Source: Halostagnicola kamekurae
Lineage (GTDB): Archaea > Halobacteriota > Halobacteria > Halobacteriales > Natrialbaceae
Length of the DNA: 64,000 bases
Assembly: GCF_900116205.1 (NCBI RefSeq)
Contig: NZ_FOZS01000004.1
Coordinates: 372,001-436,000 of the forward strand
Reading direction: 5' to 3'
The first letter of the stretch is position 1, and each line of letters begins with the position of its first letter. The position numbers and the translations under genes are program-made. Positions 33,145 through 45,294 of this stretch are shown piece by piece. The notes under the pieces are model-generated. The model was given only the letters and a program-made list of their open reading frames with translations. It searched no databases and was not told the DNA's origin.

Positions 33145-33360
33145 ACTCCCCCGCCGAGAATCGAACTCGGCGCTCGAGCGACTGCCCGCGTGTTGACCGG
33201 CGCTGAAGCGGACTCGCCCGCCCAGCGTACACTACGGGGGAAGACCGCGTAGTTCTGACTGGCCGGACGGACGAGCCACGAGAACGAGGAATCGGCGGCG
33301 CGTCGAGCGCGACGAGCGAAAATCCTCGAGGAGACGACATCCATCCGGCCGGCGTCGAAC
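33145..33360. other. intergenic segment with tRNA-like inverted structure
   Basis: On the minus strand a T-arm-like hairpin (CCGAG TTCGATT CTCGG) is followed by CGGGGGA, which pairs perfectly with TCCCCCG 88 nt upstream. The 95-nt element (about 33147-33241) thus has an acceptor stem and T arm, but I cannot form normal D and anticodon arms. No other feature is seen in the segment. Confidence 0.3.
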
Positions 33361-38398: not shown

Positions 38399-39446
38399 AT
38401 ATAGGTATTATTCAGACGATCAGTTGATTCTTTCCTATCACTATCAATATCAGTCAATCGGTGAATATGGCAAACCAATAGGGTTCAACAGGCAGAGGAA
38501 ACCTGTTTGCGCGACCCGAGGCTACTCGAGAAAACGTGTAACTGAGTAATAGCTACCCCACGTAGAGTAGCTACTCGAGCTATCGAACCACAGGTACCTA
38601 TTGTATCTATCACGACTACCTTCGGGTATGTCTACTCTACAGGCCCAGATCCCCTGAATAATTCTCTACCACTCCCATGGTAGAGACACAACACAGCATC
38701 GAGCCAACTACGGACTCGAACAGTGATAGGCAAGACACCAATACCAAGGTACCGACAACTGAGGCGATCGGCCGGAATCTGGGCCAGCGATCCGGCATTT
38801 AGTGAATCGATAGATATCTCGACGACAACTCACCTGATTTGTTCGGCCATAACCCCACCAAAATCGAATACGAATCGAGCGATCGGACGACCGCATCCCC
38901 ACACTTGATGAACGGACCAATAGTTGAGGAAAGCAGCCTCTCTTGCCACACACTCTGCGGGTAGTCACTCGCTCGTCTTCGAGCTGGCTCGTACACAGCG
39001 GACCGGATCAGAGCCGCACTAACAACAATAGTTGGGATAGGAAGAATAGTCAGACCAGGTACAATAGATACAGAAGCCACAATGCAATAGGTAGCTGAAA
39101 CGGGAGCCCAAAATCCGGTAGTCGAGGAGATAACCCCCAAACAGTCAGGAGACATACCTTGAAAAGACGAGGGAAGCACAGTAGAAAAAACAGATTCCGT
39201 AGGAAAGAGAGATACACCAGCCAAAATAGAGGCGATAGAGAAGATACACCAGATAGATAGAATAGCTTATGGAGAAGGGGCAGACAGGACAGGTGAGATA
39301 GGAAGAATAGGTGAGTTATCCACAATAGGTATGATAGGGGCTATAGGAGAGCTATCTAAAGTCCCTATTGTATCTATTAGACCTACCCCAGCTACTTGAC
39401 CCATTTTACCTATTCCACCTATTGTTCCTCGAGTAGCTATCTTCGG

Positions 39447-39456
39447 TATTTTTAAG
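39447..39456 (+). promoter_or_regulatory. probable TATA element of the parA operon
   Basis: TATTTTTAAG is centred 100 nt upstream of the parA ATG. It would place transcription start near 39478, so the mRNA leader would contain the 18-bp palindrome at 39507-39524. Confidence 0.4.
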
Positions 39457-39506
39457 CCTTTCAACTTCCATGATACTCCTATTCACAACGAAGGCTCGTG
39501 AGAGAA

Positions 39507-39524
39507 ACAATAGGTACCTATTGT
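39507..39524. promoter_or_regulatory. perfect 18-bp palindrome before parA
   Basis: ACAATAGGTACCTATTGT is a perfect dyad ending 27 nt before the parA start codon, and it contains both orientations of the repeated 7-mer. A dimeric DNA-binding protein, perhaps the downstream partner, would be expected to bind here for autoregulation and/or partition. Confidence 0.7.
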
Positions 39525-39551
39525 CCGAGCGAGTACACAACGAAATCACCC

Positions 39552-40442
39552 ATGGAGCCAAATACAGACACACCACAGGCAGTAAGCGTCGTTATTCTCA
39601 AAGGTGGCGTCGGAAAATCGACGACGTCGATGAACCTCGCCCGACAGCTCTCGGAGCGCGGTAAAACGTTGTTCGCGGATCTCGATCCGAACGGCCACGC
39701 GACTAACGGATTGGGATACGAAAAAGCGTATCAAAGCGAGACGAACCTCGGCGACGTAATTCTCGAGGGGAACGCCACGCCCGGTGATATCATACGGTCG
39801 ACCGATCACGGGTTCGATCTCCTCCCGTCGTCGAATACGCTCGAGGACGTCGAAAAGGACCTGGCCGGGGCGATGCAAGGCTCGGCCAGAGTCAAATCGA
39901 AAATCGTCGACCCGCTACTGGGCGAGGAGTACGACTACGTGGTGTTCGACTGCCCCGCGTACCCCGGCATGCTCAACAACAACGCGCTCGTGGCGACGGG
40001 AAACGTCATGATACCGATCGAACCCGGCTCGAGCGCTATCGGCGGATACAAACGGACGATGGAACGGCTCATCGAGCCGGCCCGCGAATACATCGACGTC
40101 GACGTGTTGGCGGTGGTGCCGAACAAACTCTCCGATCGGATCGACCAGCAGACCGAAGACCGGGAACTGCTCGAGAACCTGAATACGGCGAGCTACGAGG
40201 TTAACGACGGCCAACCGCTGCAGGAAGTCGTTCCATCGTTCGCCCGCATTACGGCTGCGGAGTTCGACCGCATCGACGCCGGTGAGATGCAGGCACCGAA
40301 ACCCGGAATTCGACATCGATCTGCGCTGTCGCGTTCACTCCAGGAAAACCAACCGTTGCAGGAGTACGACCCGGAGAGCGACCAAATCGAACACTATCGC
40401 GAGCTCGCCGATATCGTCGCGAACGGAGGGGTCGACGCATGA
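39552..40442 (+). CDS. parA: ParA-family partition ATPase
   Basis: A 296-residue ParA/Soj ATPase. VVILKGGVGKSTTSMNLARQL holds the deviant Walker A motif (KGGVGKST), FADLDPNGHATNGLG is the Walker A' region, and YDYVVFDCPAYPGMLNNNAL is Walker B. There is no N-terminal HTH, so it is the small-ParA type, usually needing a separate site-binding partner. ATG 39552 is chosen; GTG 39498 would run through the palindrome. Its stop overlaps the next start by ATGA. The C-terminal ~40 residues are variable and polar. It may segregate a chromosome, plasmid-derived region or other cargo. Confidence 0.93.
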   Translation: MEPNTDTPQAVSVVILKGGVGKSTTSMNLARQLSERGKTLFADLDPNGHATNGLGYEKAYQSETNLGDVILEGNATPGDIIRSTDHGFDLLPSSNTLEDVEKDLAGAMQGSARVKSKIVDPLLGEEYDYVVFDCPAYPGMLNNNALVATGNVMIPIEPGSSAIGGYKRTMERLIEPAREYIDVDVLAVVPNKLSDRIDQQTEDRELLENLNTASYEVNDGQPLQEVVPSFARITAAEFDRIDAGEMQAPKPGIRHRSALSRSLQENQPLQEYDPESDQIEHYRELADIVANGGVDA

Positions 40443-40906
40443 GTAACCCGTTCGACGATCTCGATAGCGACGACGACGGGAACGTCGACGGTGGAAACGT
40501 TGACGACGGGAACATTGACGCCGGAACCACGGAACAAACGACCAACCCGACCGGTGAACCCGCTACGGAATCCGCTTCGACAACTCAAACGGCGAAACAA
40601 GCGACGAAACCCCAAACGACGGGCGAAGAACAGAAGTCACCATCAGCGGAGGCGACGTCGCCCGCAGACGCGGGACCGGGATTCGAATACAGCGACGTTC
40701 GCCAGAAGCCGCTGTACGCGCGCGATGAAACGTGGAACGAACTCGAGGACAAACTCGGGATCGAGGTCACACCGGAGCTTCGGCGGATGGAGATTCGGGA
40801 CGAAGAAACTCGTGAAGTCCATGACGCTATACTCAAAGTCGCGCTAGAGCACATCGACGAGGTCCCTGAGCAGATCCACAGGACGCGAGAGGATTCGCTC
40901 GAGTGA
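40439..40906 (+). CDS. acidic ParA-partner protein (155 residues)
   Basis: The start overlaps the parA stop (ATGA at 40439-40442), indicating translational coupling. Residues 1-75 are Asp/Thr/Glu-rich and disordered (FDDLDSDDDGNVDGGNVDDG). Residues ~78-155 form a compact, probably helical domain (FEYSDVRQKPLYARDETWNELEDKLGIEVTP ... ELRRMEIRDEETREVHDAIL). It has no ParB nuclease-like or KorB motif. By position it would be the site-binding adaptor. A small conserved domain of this type occurs in other haloarchaea, as I recall. Confidence 0.72.
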   Translation: MSNPFDDLDSDDDGNVDGGNVDDGNIDAGTTEQTTNPTGEPATESASTTQTAKQATKPQTTGEEQKSPSAEATSPADAGPGFEYSDVRQKPLYARDETWNELEDKLGIEVTPELRRMEIRDEETREVHDAILKVALEHIDEVPEQIHRTREDSLE

Positions 40907-41094: not shown

Positions 41095-41958
41095 TCAGAC
41101 CTCGCGAAACGGACCGAGACGGGTTCCGTCGAGGAGGAACGCCTCCCCGTCTGCGATACCGTCCGGAAGAAACGGCGCGAGAAACGACTGCCCGGGAACG
41201 TTCACCCACGTCCCGCCGACTAGATCGTTGAAGGCGGGTATTCCAACCATTCGAGGCGGTTCGCCAGTATCGAGCCACGAGAGGTCTCGATACTCCTCGC
41301 GGGCGGCGAACGGTTTCGGATCGAGTCGGCCGCGGAGCCAGATCGGTTCTACGCGAGCACCGCCGACCTCGTCCTCGAGTCGGATACAGGGATGTTCGTG
41401 ACCGAAACAGACAACCTCCGCCTCGAGCACGTCGGCTGACGGCCAAGTGTGGCCGTGACAGACGCCGAGCGGACCCAGTCGAACGCCGGTTCCGGCGTGA
41501 ATATCGAGGCGAGCGGAGTGACTCTCGCTTCCGATAACGTCGACGACGCCTGGGTCGTCGTGCTCGCTCGAGTCGGCCTCGAGCCACGTTTCGATCGCCC
41601 CGTCGTGATTGCCCTTGACGAGGGTGACCGACACCGAATCGAGGACCGATTCGAGTAAGACCTCGAGTTCGCCGCGTTCGGCGCCGCCCGGTTCGCCGAT
41701 GGCGTGCATCAAATCACCGCAGACGACAAGTCGGTCGACCCCAGTTCGTTCGAGCAACTCGAGCAACCGTTCCCGGCGGTCGGGCGCCTGGCTCGGAACG
41801 TCGACGCCCCGTTCGTACCGCAGTCCGGCTTCGTAGCCGGCGTGGTAATCCGCGATCACGAGCGCCCGTTCGTCCGGGAGCGTTGCCACCGCTGCCGGAG
41901 CTCCCGGAATCGGCTCGAGAATCGGCGCGTCGGAATCGTGCCGGGGTGGTGTGTCCAT
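41095..41958 (-). CDS. rpe: RPA-associated calcineurin-like phosphoesterase
   Basis: A 287-residue metallophosphoesterase. The metal-binding motifs are complete: ADYHAG (D-x-H), VVCGDLMHAIG (G-D-x-x-H), VKGNHDG (GNHD), GVCHGHTWP and CFGHEHP. It follows rpap on the same strand by 30 bp, as rpe does in the rpa1-rpap1-rpe operon described in Haloferax. Members of this operon act together at single-stranded DNA in replication and repair; the phosphoesterase substrate is not established. It is the last gene of the operon. Confidence 0.88.
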   Translation of the reverse strand: MDTPPRHDSDAPILEPIPGAPAAVATLPDERALVIADYHAGYEAGLRYERGVDVPSQAPDRRERLLELLERTGVDRLVVCGDLMHAIGEPGGAERGELEVLLESVLDSVSVTLVKGNHDGAIETWLEADSSEHDDPGVVDVIGSESHSARLDIHAGTGVRLGPLGVCHGHTWPSADVLEAEVVCFGHEHPCIRLEDEVGGARVEPIWLRGRLDPKPFAAREEYRDLSWLDTGEPPRMVGIPAFNDLVGGTWVNVPGQSFLAPFLPDGIADGEAFLLDGTRLGPFREV

Positions 41959-41988
41959 TCAGAAAAGAGGATTTGCGAGCGGGTCGAC

Positions 41989-43812
41989 TCAGATCGCTTT
42001 GAGCGTTTCGTCGTCGGGTTCGTAACACTGACCGCCCATCAGCGCGTCCTGAATCGCGTCCTCGACGGCGTCGGGAGCCGCGCCCGTCTCGTCGACGACG
42101 GACGAGACGACCGTCGATCGGTCCGCGCCGTCGCCGTCGTCGAGCCGATTCATCGTTTCGATGACCTGGGCCTGAACGTCGATCGGTTCGTCGGGTTCGG
42201 CGGCTTCGTCGACCGATTCTGCCGCCTGCTCCGTGTCGGTCGTGCTCTCGGACTGTGCGTCGGCGTCGGTTTGGTCGTCCTCCGCGAGCGACTCTACAGA
42301 GTCCGATCGTGCCGACTCGTCTCCCTCAGATTGTTCGGCCGGTTCTGAGGCGGCTTCTTCCCGTTCGACCGAATCACTGTCGACGTCGATGTCGGCCGAT
42401 CCGGGTTCGTCGACTTCGGCTCCGGTCGAAAACTCCGTTCCGAACTCGGCCTCGAGTTCTTCGCGTTCTTCGTCGTCCATCTCGTACATACCCTCGTCGA
42501 ATCCGTCGCTATCGAAATCGCCGAGGTCACCGTCCGAAGCGTCGTCAGAATCGGACTCCGTACTGATCTCGGTGCTTGAGGCCTCGCCGTCGGACTCACT
42601 AGCGCTTGTGGCTTCGTCGAGTTCGGTCGTAACGTCGCTTTCGACGGTCGTCTGCTCGCCGGTTGAACCGTCACCCGAAGTCTGACTCTCGGCGACAGCC
42701 GATCTCCCGTCCGACTCGGTCGCACTCTCGGCATCCGCTGGCACTTCCGTCGCGTCCGCCGTCGGATCGGTACCGTCAGTATCCGTACTCGAATCTCGAG
42801 CGGTCTGCGCAGCGGCCGGTTCGTCATCGGTGAGCGTATCGTCGGTCGGTTCGTCACCGATCGGTTCGTGAGTGGCCTGTTCGTCATCGGTCGGCGACGA
42901 TTCGCCCGAAAGCGTCGCCGTCTCGGGCTCCGATCCGGTCGCCGAACCGACGACCTCGTCCGTAGACTCCTGACCCGACGCCGAGGCCGTCGACACAGCC
43001 GGTTCGTCCGCGGGTTCTCTCTCAGCGTCCGGAGAGTCTGCGAGGTGGGTTTCCAGGCTCGAGGCGTCAATATCGACAGTTCCGGCTGCCGCGATTTCCT
43101 CGAACGATCGACTGTCGGGCGCCGTCTCGTTCGGTCGGGCGTCGAACTCGGCCGCGTCCTCCCGGTCCCCGGCGATGACCTCGAGGGCCGCAACCGATCG
43201 ATCGCGGAGTCCCTCGAGATAGGTCGGCGTGGTTCCGTAGTGACCCTGTGCGAGCGAGATGCCCTGTGCGAGCGGGTCGTCGACACCAGCTTCGACGAGG
43301 GCATCGCGGAGGCCGGATCCGCGGGCGTCGATACCCGACGCCGCGGCGTACGCGTCGATCCGTTCGATCGTCTGTTCAGCCGCGCTCGCGACCCAGCGGT
43401 CGCGCGTCTCGGCGTCGACCGTGGCGATGCTCTCCGGGCGGACCGACGTGTAGACCCGTTCCGAGTCCTCGGGCTGGAAGGTCCGCGCTTTCCCCGTGAT
43501 CGCGACGAACTCGGGCGGGTCGAGCTGTTCTAACGCGGCGAGTTCGTCTGGCTGATACTGACCAGCATAGACGACGAACGCGCCCGTGGGGTCGACGACG
43601 CGAGCCCGGAGCATCTCATCGTTGACCGGCGAGACTTCCGTGAGCGTCCCGACGACGAACAGGCGGTTGAGCCGCGCGCCCGTCGGCGTGATGACGTAGT
43701 TCGGTGCGCGCTCCTCGTCGCTCTCGGCGTGCGAGAGCGTCGCGTCGTCGTACTCGGTCGCGAACAGGCGGTAGGCGATCTCCCTGTTCGGTCGCGGGGA
43801 TTCGGCGCTCAT
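41989..43812 (-). CDS. rpap1: RPA-associated protein with long acidic linker
   Basis: A 607-residue protein in three parts. Residues 1-~210 hold an OB-fold (NREIAYRLFATEYDDATLSHAES ... RLFVVGTLTEVSPVNDEMLRARVVDPTGAFVVYAG) and an adjoining helical region. Residues ~220-535 are a very acidic Ser/Thr/Asp/Glu linker with short repeats such as TDDEP. The last ~65 residues (VQAQVIETMNRLDDGDGADRSTVVSSVVDETGA ...) form a small winged-helix-like domain that ends the family. The start overlaps the rpa stop by four bases. It probably binds RPA and DNA. The linker is longer than I would expect. Confidence 0.88.
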   Translation of the reverse strand: MSAESPRPNREIAYRLFATEYDDATLSHAESDEERAPNYVITPTGARLNRLFVVGTLTEVSPVNDEMLRARVVDPTGAFVVYAGQYQPDELAALEQLDPPEFVAITGKARTFQPEDSERVYTSVRPESIATVDAETRDRWVASAAEQTIERIDAYAAASGIDARGSGLRDALVEAGVDDPLAQGISLAQGHYGTTPTYLEGLRDRSVAALEVIAGDREDAAEFDARPNETAPDSRSFEEIAAAGTVDIDASSLETHLADSPDAEREPADEPAVSTASASGQESTDEVVGSATGSEPETATLSGESSPTDDEQATHEPIGDEPTDDTLTDDEPAAAQTARDSSTDTDGTDPTADATEVPADAESATESDGRSAVAESQTSGDGSTGEQTTVESDVTTELDEATSASESDGEASSTEISTESDSDDASDGDLGDFDSDGFDEGMYEMDDEEREELEAEFGTEFSTGAEVDEPGSADIDVDSDSVEREEAASEPAEQSEGDESARSDSVESLAEDDQTDADAQSESTTDTEQAAESVDEAAEPDEPIDVQAQVIETMNRLDDGDGADRSTVVSSVVDETGAAPDAVEDAIQDALMGGQCYEPDDETLKAI

Positions 43813-45083
43813 GCTCTCACCTCCGCGAGAACGTCGGTCGCACGGGTCGCCGGATCCGCGTCGCTCTCCTCAAAGCGCTCGGCGTCGAGGTTTGCGCCGT
43901 ACTCGTCAACCGACAGATGACCGCGGATGGAGTACTCCCGGCCGACGATCTTCTCCCGGATCGTATCCGCGACGACCTCCTGATCCATGGCCTCGCGGGC
44001 CTGCTCGAGGGCGTCCTCGAGGGTCCCCTCGTAGACCTGTTCGGTCAGTTCGTCGTCGAGGATGACGGTGACTGCGCCCGTCCCGTCGTCGAGGATCGCC
44101 TTGACGCGCAGATCGTCGACGCCCTCGACGGAGCCGTGCGTTCGGCACTGTCCCTTCTGGACGACGCGGTTACACTCCGGACAGCGCTGAATCAATCCGG
44201 ACCCGTCGCGGACGGCGAGGACGTTCCCCACCAGTTCGACGTCGTAGACGCCGCCGGTCGCGACGGCCTCGCCGACCCCCATCGTGGTCGTGTCGGTCCC
44301 GACCTCGACGTCGGTCTCGAGCGTCGAGACGACCGAAAACTCCGAGACGTTGACCTCCGGAACGCCGCGGAACTCGCGGACGTACGCGTTCTCGATACGA
44401 ACCGAGACGCCGGGTTCGATCGCGGGATCGGGGTCCCAGCAGGTGAAGGGGAGGCGTCCCGATTCGTCGCCCAGGACGCCGCTGAGTATTTCAGTTTCGC
44501 CGTCGCGGCCGTCAATCGTCCGCCGCTCGGACTCGAGGATTTGCACGTCGACCGTCACCGCTCGGTCGCCGGTTTCTACGTCTGCAATCGACGCTTCGCC
44601 CCCGATTTCGAAGGGGACTTCGAGCGATTCCTCTACGAACGAAAGGGACGTACTCTCGCCGAGGTTGAGTTCGGGTTCGCCGTCCCACTCTCTGACACTG
44701 GCGTTGCCCGCGGTGATCGCATCGCCCGCTGAGAGGCCGAAGTCCTCCCAGGCGGTGTAGTCGATCGCTCCCGTTTCGTCCGCCAGTCGCCCCTCGACGA
44801 TGACGTGATCGTCGCCCTGATATCGGATCGAGCGTTCGCCCGCGGTCAGGACGACGGCGGTGACCGTGACGTTGCCATCGTCGGTCGTGATGTTGCCGAT
44901 ATCTTTCGACGACGGCGTTCCGCCGCCACCGCCGGTATCGTCGCCGTACTTTCGTCGAAGGCTCTGTTTTGCCTCGTCGATCGGAACGCTGTACTCCACC
45001 AGGTTCTGCAGGTCCGCTTTGACCTCCTCTTTGTCAATACCGAGATCGGAGGCGAGATCCTCGGCATGGTTATCGAGTTCCAT
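43809..45083 (-). CDS. rpa1: replication protein A, three OB folds and zinc finger
   Basis: A 424-residue single-stranded DNA-binding protein. The N-terminus (MELDNHAEDLASDLGIDKEEV) precedes three OB-fold segments, around VTVTAVVLTAGERSIRYQGDD, VDVQILESERRTIDGRDGETE and VELVGNVLAVRDGSGLIQRC. The zinc finger RCPECNRVVQKGQCRTHG (C-x2-C-x8-C-x2-H) is complete. It coats ssDNA in replication, repair and recombination. ATG 45083 fits the family N-terminus; an upstream in-frame start at 45188 does not. A TATA-like AATATATTATTAAC lies at 45202-45215 on the other side of the divergent ATPase promoter. Confidence 0.93.
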   Translation of the reverse strand: MELDNHAEDLASDLGIDKEEVKADLQNLVEYSVPIDEAKQSLRRKYGDDTGGGGGTPSSKDIGNITTDDGNVTVTAVVLTAGERSIRYQGDDHVIVEGRLADETGAIDYTAWEDFGLSAGDAITAGNASVREWDGEPELNLGESTSLSFVEESLEVPFEIGGEASIADVETGDRAVTVDVQILESERRTIDGRDGETEILSGVLGDESGRLPFTCWDPDPAIEPGVSVRIENAYVREFRGVPEVNVSEFSVVSTLETDVEVGTDTTTMGVGEAVATGGVYDVELVGNVLAVRDGSGLIQRCPECNRVVQKGQCRTHGSVEGVDDLRVKAILDDGTGAVTVILDDELTEQVYEGTLEDALEQAREAMDQEVVADTIREKIVGREYSIRGHLSVDEYGANLDAERFEESDADPATRATDVLAEVRA

Positions 45084-45294
45084 CACCGGATGCTTCGAGT
45101 GGGGGGCTAAAAAGCGTTCCCGCAATAGAGTGAAAGTGAACGGGCGACGAATCGGGATCATGCGGCGACCTCCGAGACCGCTCGTCAATCAGCGCGGGTT
45201 AATAATATATTGGGAGTTTTCTAGTAAGGATTTGTGGTAAAACGCCGTTTTATAGCAGATGGATTAATAAGGTTGTGACCACTATCGAGTAGTA
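45084..45294. promoter_or_regulatory. divergent promoter region between rpa and the metal ATPase
   Basis: A 211-bp divergent region. TTTTATAGC near 45248-45256 suits the ATPase TATA box (about 45 nt before its ATG) and AATATATTATTAAC at 45202-45215 may serve rpa. I see no dyad that clearly marks a metal-sensor operator. Confidence 0.4.

Follow-up and report, generated by a model that had tools for sequence, protein, structure and literature searches.

A probable type Ib-like plasmid partition locus with a 9-bp-phased putative centromere in the haloarchaeon Halostagnicola kamekurae

What does a ParA-type ATPase with a small coupled partner do in Halostagnicola kamekurae, and which feature of the DNA in front of it does the pair act on? 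The preliminary description of a 64,000-nucleotide stretch of contig NZ_FOZS01000004.1 (the window; all positions below count from its first letter unless stated otherwise) saw here a candidate partition cassette of type Ib-like layout, consisting of a ParA that lacks an N-terminal helix-turn-helix (HTH), a small coupled adaptor and an upstream centromere. Conservation of the array, a pattern almost confined to the locus and plasmid carriers support this core reading. We consider it very probable that the locus is a type Ib-like plasmid partition locus on a haloarchaeal megaplasmid, and that its phased-iteron centromere is also used for autoregulation.

The starting point was a cluster of eight copies of AATAGGT or its complement ACCTATT, all of which are present (38596, 39086, 39306, 39324, 39408, 39417, 39509 and 39516). 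The cluster exceeds chance, since the density in the genome predicts only about 0.02 copies per 930 bp, and the window as a whole has 10 copies against 1.6 expected, a number reached in 0 of 100 shuffles. Equal density elsewhere can be dismissed: the 4.1 Mb of the genome contain 107 copies, compared with 122 for a reversed-pattern control, and as the 7-mer is thus not enriched genome-wide, its clustering before parA is local. The eight copies are real, but they are only the best-preserved rungs of a degenerate 9-bp lattice, which the preliminary description had missed.

A weight matrix built without the window, together with autocorrelation, delimits this lattice as a main array at 39026-39439 (no strand assigned), a putative centromere (parS) of about 46 lattice positions in a single register with the consensus nAATAGSTR. 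Strong units from 39031 to 39436 share the register, with one exception at 39090, and a fraction of 0.92 of the array score at this locus falls into one phase. The units are oriented forward up to about 39350 and mostly in reverse beyond. The highest score of a six-unit block is 32.2 in the main array; a distal mini-block of phased units in another register (38547-38602, no strand assigned, first centre 38552), which includes the ACCTATT at 38596, reaches 29.9, and no block in the rest of the 64 kb exceeds 12.6. A four-unit phased pattern, with at most 3 mismatches allowed, has 10 matches in the 4.1 Mb genome, 9 of them at the locus and 1 on the same contig. An isolated intergenic three-unit phased mini-site of the array motif lies on the same contig as well (L163:3051-3095, contig C4:153550-153594) and is possibly a secondary site. 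Strand asymmetry is strong over 39000-39300, with an AT skew of 0.52, because the array units there share one orientation.

The neighbourhoods of 78 perfect copies (about 33 bp on each side) yield the unit nAATAGSTR and show that its conservation is strongest at TAGSTR. As this core, TAG|STR, is a near-palindrome with a pseudo-dyad, inverted copies are predicted to be in step when measured from dyad to dyad, and opposite-strand copies are indeed in phase, with 26 of 34 pairs within 150 bp at multiples of 9. In a larger set, drawn from 31 of 34 loci, neighbouring units on opposite strands are in phase in 40 of 51 cases, compared with 1 in 9 by chance (binomial p about 1e-28, to be taken as a guide only, since the loci are related).

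The array is followed by parA (39552-40442, forward strand), which encodes a 296-residue ATPase identified by its family match (AAA_31) and by profile matches to solved ParA/Soj structures. Its deviant Walker A motif, KGGVGKST, comes as early as residue 17, leaving no room for an N-terminal HTH, as had been claimed. The partner gene (40439-40906, forward strand) encodes an acidic adaptor of 155 residues that is translationally coupled to parA through an ATGA overlap; the reported overlap and the reported lack of a ParB motif both hold, the partner having no match in Pfam or NCBIfam. The operon consists of these two genes only, and the next genes are on the opposite strand. Across the family, the partner lies immediately 3' of parA in 72 of 80 loci, and in most cases the two genes overlap by a few bases.

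On which replicon does the cassette reside? Among named relatives, Halostagnicola larsenii XH-48 is the nearest, and its parA orthologue is located on a plasmid of 464,581 bp. The first 20 kb of the window match a 131-kb plasmid of this species, kilobases 41 to 48 a 173-kb contig, and kilobases 48 to 55 a 465-kb plasmid. As the DNA of the window thus matches three H. larsenii plasmids, the contig is best read as a mosaic or fused megaplasmid; a terminal overlap that would indicate circularity of contig C4 was not found. The earlier suggestion of a chromosomal locus becomes unlikely in the light of flanks that match three different plasmids. Synteny as a sign of a chromosomal locus was discarded too, since no flanking gene block is common to the orthologues and the plasmids matched in H. 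larsenii differ; a single orthologue (L037) has RPA-like genes nearby, at 29-37% identity. ParA relatives are found on 150 plasmid records, with only haloarchaea among the organisms listed, and the five contigs of H. larsenii all have a match to the ParA superfamily. The resemblance of the contig to a fusion of sequences from three H. larsenii plasmids might also be taken to mean that the cassette no longer functions and is what remains of a plasmid that was integrated or fused. We regard this as very improbable, since both genes are intact, identity between the ParA and its orthologue is 92%, and the register of the array has been kept, as seen in the large share of its score in one phase.

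Several other features of the genomic surroundings are recorded here. A cluster of genes for an RPA-like protein, an RPA-associated protein and a phosphoesterase occupies 41095-45188 on this plasmid-like contig, and this genome has related sequence on contig C2, as does H. larsenii on its largest contig. The sole tRNA gene of the window, a tRNA-Leu with anticodon cag (33145-33242), is located on what is apparently a plasmid. Broken or fragmentary relatives of parA are present in other genomes and on contig C9 of this one (G015:C54:909-1428, G036:C3:84013 and L152), which suggests turnover of partition cassettes.

Comparison with relatives shows that the rhythm of the array is kept while its letters change. 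The array is present in the 15 closest orthologues (ParA 72-92% identical to that of the window), so that its expected conservation together with parA is confirmed. In the window and these 15 orthologues, autocorrelation upstream of parA peaks at multiples of 9, with mean z values of 5.1, 5.1, 3.9, 3.2, 2.9 and 2.3 at 9, 18, 27, 36, 45 and 54; the signal is weakest in L039-L041. Controls, which are mostly coding, show ordinary autocorrelation at all multiples of 3. Upstream DNA within clade A is unalignable, with a median coverage of 0% at E 1e-3 against 98% for parA, and hence it is the architecture that is kept, not inherited letters. Over 102 distinct upstream regions of haloarchaeal loci, whose ParA proteins are 37-92% identical to the query, the mean 9-bp score is 4.4, compared with -0.05 (sd 0.9) in 918 control segments from the same loci. 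The periodicity exceeds the 95th percentile of these controls in 88 of the 102 loci and the 99th in 75, and about 14% fall short of the 95th.

With the period constant, the unit varies with the clade of parA and adaptor, taking the form of acAATAGGT, GAATAGC or the palindrome ACACnGTGT. Arrays of clade A score 39.5 with the clade A matrix and -23 with the clade B matrix, and those of clade B score 40.4 with their own matrix and -16 with that of clade A; the baseline from shuffled sequence is about -20 to -27. Versions of the cassette also occur in Halobacterium salinarum NRC-1 and Haloferax mediterranei: pNRC100 has a GAATAGC-type unit, and for more distant cassettes, inspection by eye or phased words gave the units ATTGTAGAM on H. 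mediterranei pHME505 and GTCTACTGT on pNRC200. Contig C5 of the genome studied here carries another ParA (L147, 29% identical to the query) with upstream 9-bp arrays whose unit, obtained in these ways too, is AACGAAnnn; the 9-bp signal is found downstream of this parA as well, and its partner contains the segment RTIYIPDNVLDEMED. A second haloarchaeal ParA family, with the Walker A motif EAGGVGKTT and an acidic overlapping partner of its own (L148, L150, L155, L158 and L160), has upstream repeats with a 13-bp period and peaks at 13, 26, 39 and 52, and is probably a sister partition class. Halobacterium sp. KA-4 (L141) likewise has a 13-bp period.

Between the main array and parA lies the 18-bp palindrome ACAATAGGTACCTATTGT (39507-39524, no strand assigned), which is perfect, as the preliminary description had it, and ends 27 bp before the ATG. 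It is operator-like, and an inverted unit pair about 40 bp upstream of the ATG scores well in most of 41 clade A loci. The two unit dyads are merely 4 bp apart and off the 9-bp lattice, an odd spacing that fits the lattice explanation poorly, though the inverted pair recurs in most orthologues. A TATA-like element, TTTTTAAG (39449-39456, forward strand), read from the sequence between array and operator, is the putative parA promoter; many orthologues have a similar element, often GTAGAATTAAG, at the equivalent position. The phase between operator and array is constant in most loci, but we do not use it as evidence, since a constant promoter length explains it equally well.

Units that abut a promoter raise the question of whether the array is a transcriptional operator and nothing else, with the partner repressing parA and ParA positioning some other component of the cell. 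Positioning of other cargo by ParA/MinD proteins is indeed known, in haloarchaea among others (PMC11588486). However, about 400 bp and 46 lattice positions far exceed what repression needs, the carriers are plasmids, and H. larsenii has AATAGGT-type and ACACnGTGT-type cassettes on two different plasmids; we therefore think this explanation improbable. Only marginally better are the prospects of an explanation in which the array is a replication origin, its units being iterons for an Orc1/Cdc6 initiator, and parA and the partner are mere neighbours. The array region is AT-richer than the surrounding DNA, and relatives of parA on pHTUR02, pNRC200, pNRC100 and pHME505 have orc1 nearby, so that the absence of Orc1/Cdc6 genes reported earlier stands for the DNA adjoining the array here, but does not extend to these plasmids. 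With no orc1 beside the array in the window, a unit that tracks the clade of parA and adaptor, and a unit pair placed as an operator right before parA in most clade A loci, the origin explanation is unlikely in our judgement. Moreover, the sites that Orc proteins are known to bind are longer and rich in G.

If the array is a centromere, as the partition reading holds, the partner is the candidate to bind it. The partner begins with MSNPFDDL (40439-40462, forward strand), a candidate ParA-contact peptide in which P4, D7 and L8 are invariant across an alignment of 41 relatives. Family members share the N-terminal motif PxxDL (NPFDDL or DPFADL), with NRFAGL in a more distant clade, followed by an acidic linker that varies greatly in length. 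The C-terminal domain then spans about 75 residues, and its F, Y, R, RE and R positions are invariant. For this candidate DNA-binding domain (40673-40903, forward strand), AlphaFold2 predicts a strand-like segment and three helices (18-38, 46-59 and 61-76) at a mean pLDDT of 94.7. The segment before the helices has no assigned structure in the monomer model, at the place expected for a strand that pairs with another chain. The order of elements in the model is that of ribbon-helix-helix (RHH) adaptors plus an extra helix, and would suit an RHH-like fold. Foldseek, used with full-length and trimmed models of the partner, gave no significant match, and a match to a TCP domain at an E-value of about 5 was left unused; VIA-align gave none with Z >= 2. 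Sequence searches of Pfam, NCBIfam and PDB with the partner yielded no meaningful match, whether to an RHH protein or to any other, and weak matches such as those to Lin-8 and TFIIE were discarded because they stem from the acidic linker. Clades with AATAG-type units share the adaptor strand motif KPxYAR/RPFYAR, and the ACACnGTGT clade has TKKTVYVR, a covariation with the unit that fits a strand reading the DNA without being proof of it.

How does the locus relate to partition systems already described? RHH adaptors bind contiguous short repeats, whether direct or inverted, and contact ParA with their N-terminus (PMC9499535; PMC5016525). The locus shares with type Ib systems a small ParA without HTH, an adaptor directly downstream in the same operon, and upstream direct and inverted repeats, here in the inferred role of a centromere. 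Type Ib adaptors have an arginine finger in the N-terminus (PMC5016525), whereas residues 1-80 of the window partner contain no arginine at all, and PFxDL is the conserved motif there. Since this finger is absent and the RHH fold is one that we infer, we use the term type Ib-like and do not claim membership. A close parallel can be drawn with delta-omega-parS of pSM19035, which combines a ParA with an RHH adaptor (omega) and contiguous repeats in both orientations that overlap promoters, and where contiguity matters (PMC9499535). The differences are the period (7 bp, in 7-10 heptads there; 9 bp, in about 46 lattice positions here) and the adaptor, the haloarchaeal one being not detectably related, with an acidic linker and a third helix and without the basic N-terminal peptide of omega. 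The centromere repeats of pCXC100 ParB reportedly measure 9 bp. This system resembles the present one in having a direct-repeat centromere upstream of the par operon and a small RHH adaptor (PMC5016525). It is, however, bacterial, the adaptors are not detectably related, and the haloarchaeal units, built on a pseudo-dyad, are found in either orientation.

Among archaeal systems, SegAB of Sulfolobales likewise has a ParA homologue, an overlapping downstream adaptor and upstream binding sites (PMC5120986), and SegB is an RHH protein that wraps DNA (PMC9178275). Yet SegB binds near segA at single imperfect palindromes that do not form a phased array, and SegAB acts on the chromosome, whereas flanks and carriers are plasmids in our case. 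A profile of the partner domain, run against PDB sequences, retrieved no chain of SegB at E <= 10, which leaves room for remote homology. AspA-ParB-ParA of pNOB8 also partitions an archaeal plasmid with a ParA ATPase, but comprises three proteins including a ParB-like adaptor, and the operon in the window has no aspA or parB genes. Type Ia and chromosomal ParABS systems share the ParA motor; here, the partner, which has no Pfam match, is not a ParB of the HTH/CTPase kind, and ParA lacks the N-terminal HTH. By these tests, the locus is not SegAB, AspA-ParBA or a ParB-type ParABS system.

Together, our data suggest a model in which the partner acts as the adaptor that binds the centromere. Each 9-bp pseudo-palindromic box would be bound by the C-terminal domain of the partner, probably as an RHH dimer, and cooperative packing of neighbouring dimers would build an unbroken helical filament along some 400 bp and set the 9-bp period. 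Full activation of ParA by omega of pSM19035 requires at least 4 contiguous repeats (PMC9499535; PMC5016525); such a requirement, with either orientation permitted, would explain selection for an unbroken register. The acidic linker and the N-terminal PFxDL peptide may then reach out to nucleoid-bound ParA-ATP and set off ATP hydrolysis, in a diffusion-ratchet cycle that would move the plasmid and share it out. Binding at promoter-proximal units and at the operator palindrome would repress transcription of parA and the partner. Array unit and adaptor presumably diversify together, and we propose that, as a result, plasmids in one cell differ in their centromeres and stay compatible.

The recurrence of such cassettes on haloarchaeal plasmids points to an undescribed family of archaeal centromeres. 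We found no haloarchaeal centromere, of 9-bp period or otherwise defined, in the open-access literature; subscription journals, largely uncovered by this search, could hold one. Which partition systems archaea encode and what their plasmid centromeres are have been listed as open questions (PMC5120986). We tentatively suggest, though the odds are somewhat against it, that haloarchaea have a segregation class of their own, in which an undescribed adaptor family (PFxDL, acidic linker, strand and three helices) recognises long centromeres; filament geometry would fix their 9-bp period, and the unit would be free to diversify, providing replicon addresses and incompatibility. Haloarchaea are polyploid and rich in megaplasmids, and since Halobacterium salinarum NRC-1 and Haloferax mediterranei carry versions of the cassette, segregation, incompatibility and the design of stable vectors can be tested in model strains now. 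The cassettes also offer a natural set of adaptor/DNA pairs for asking how one fold switches its DNA target at a fixed spacing.
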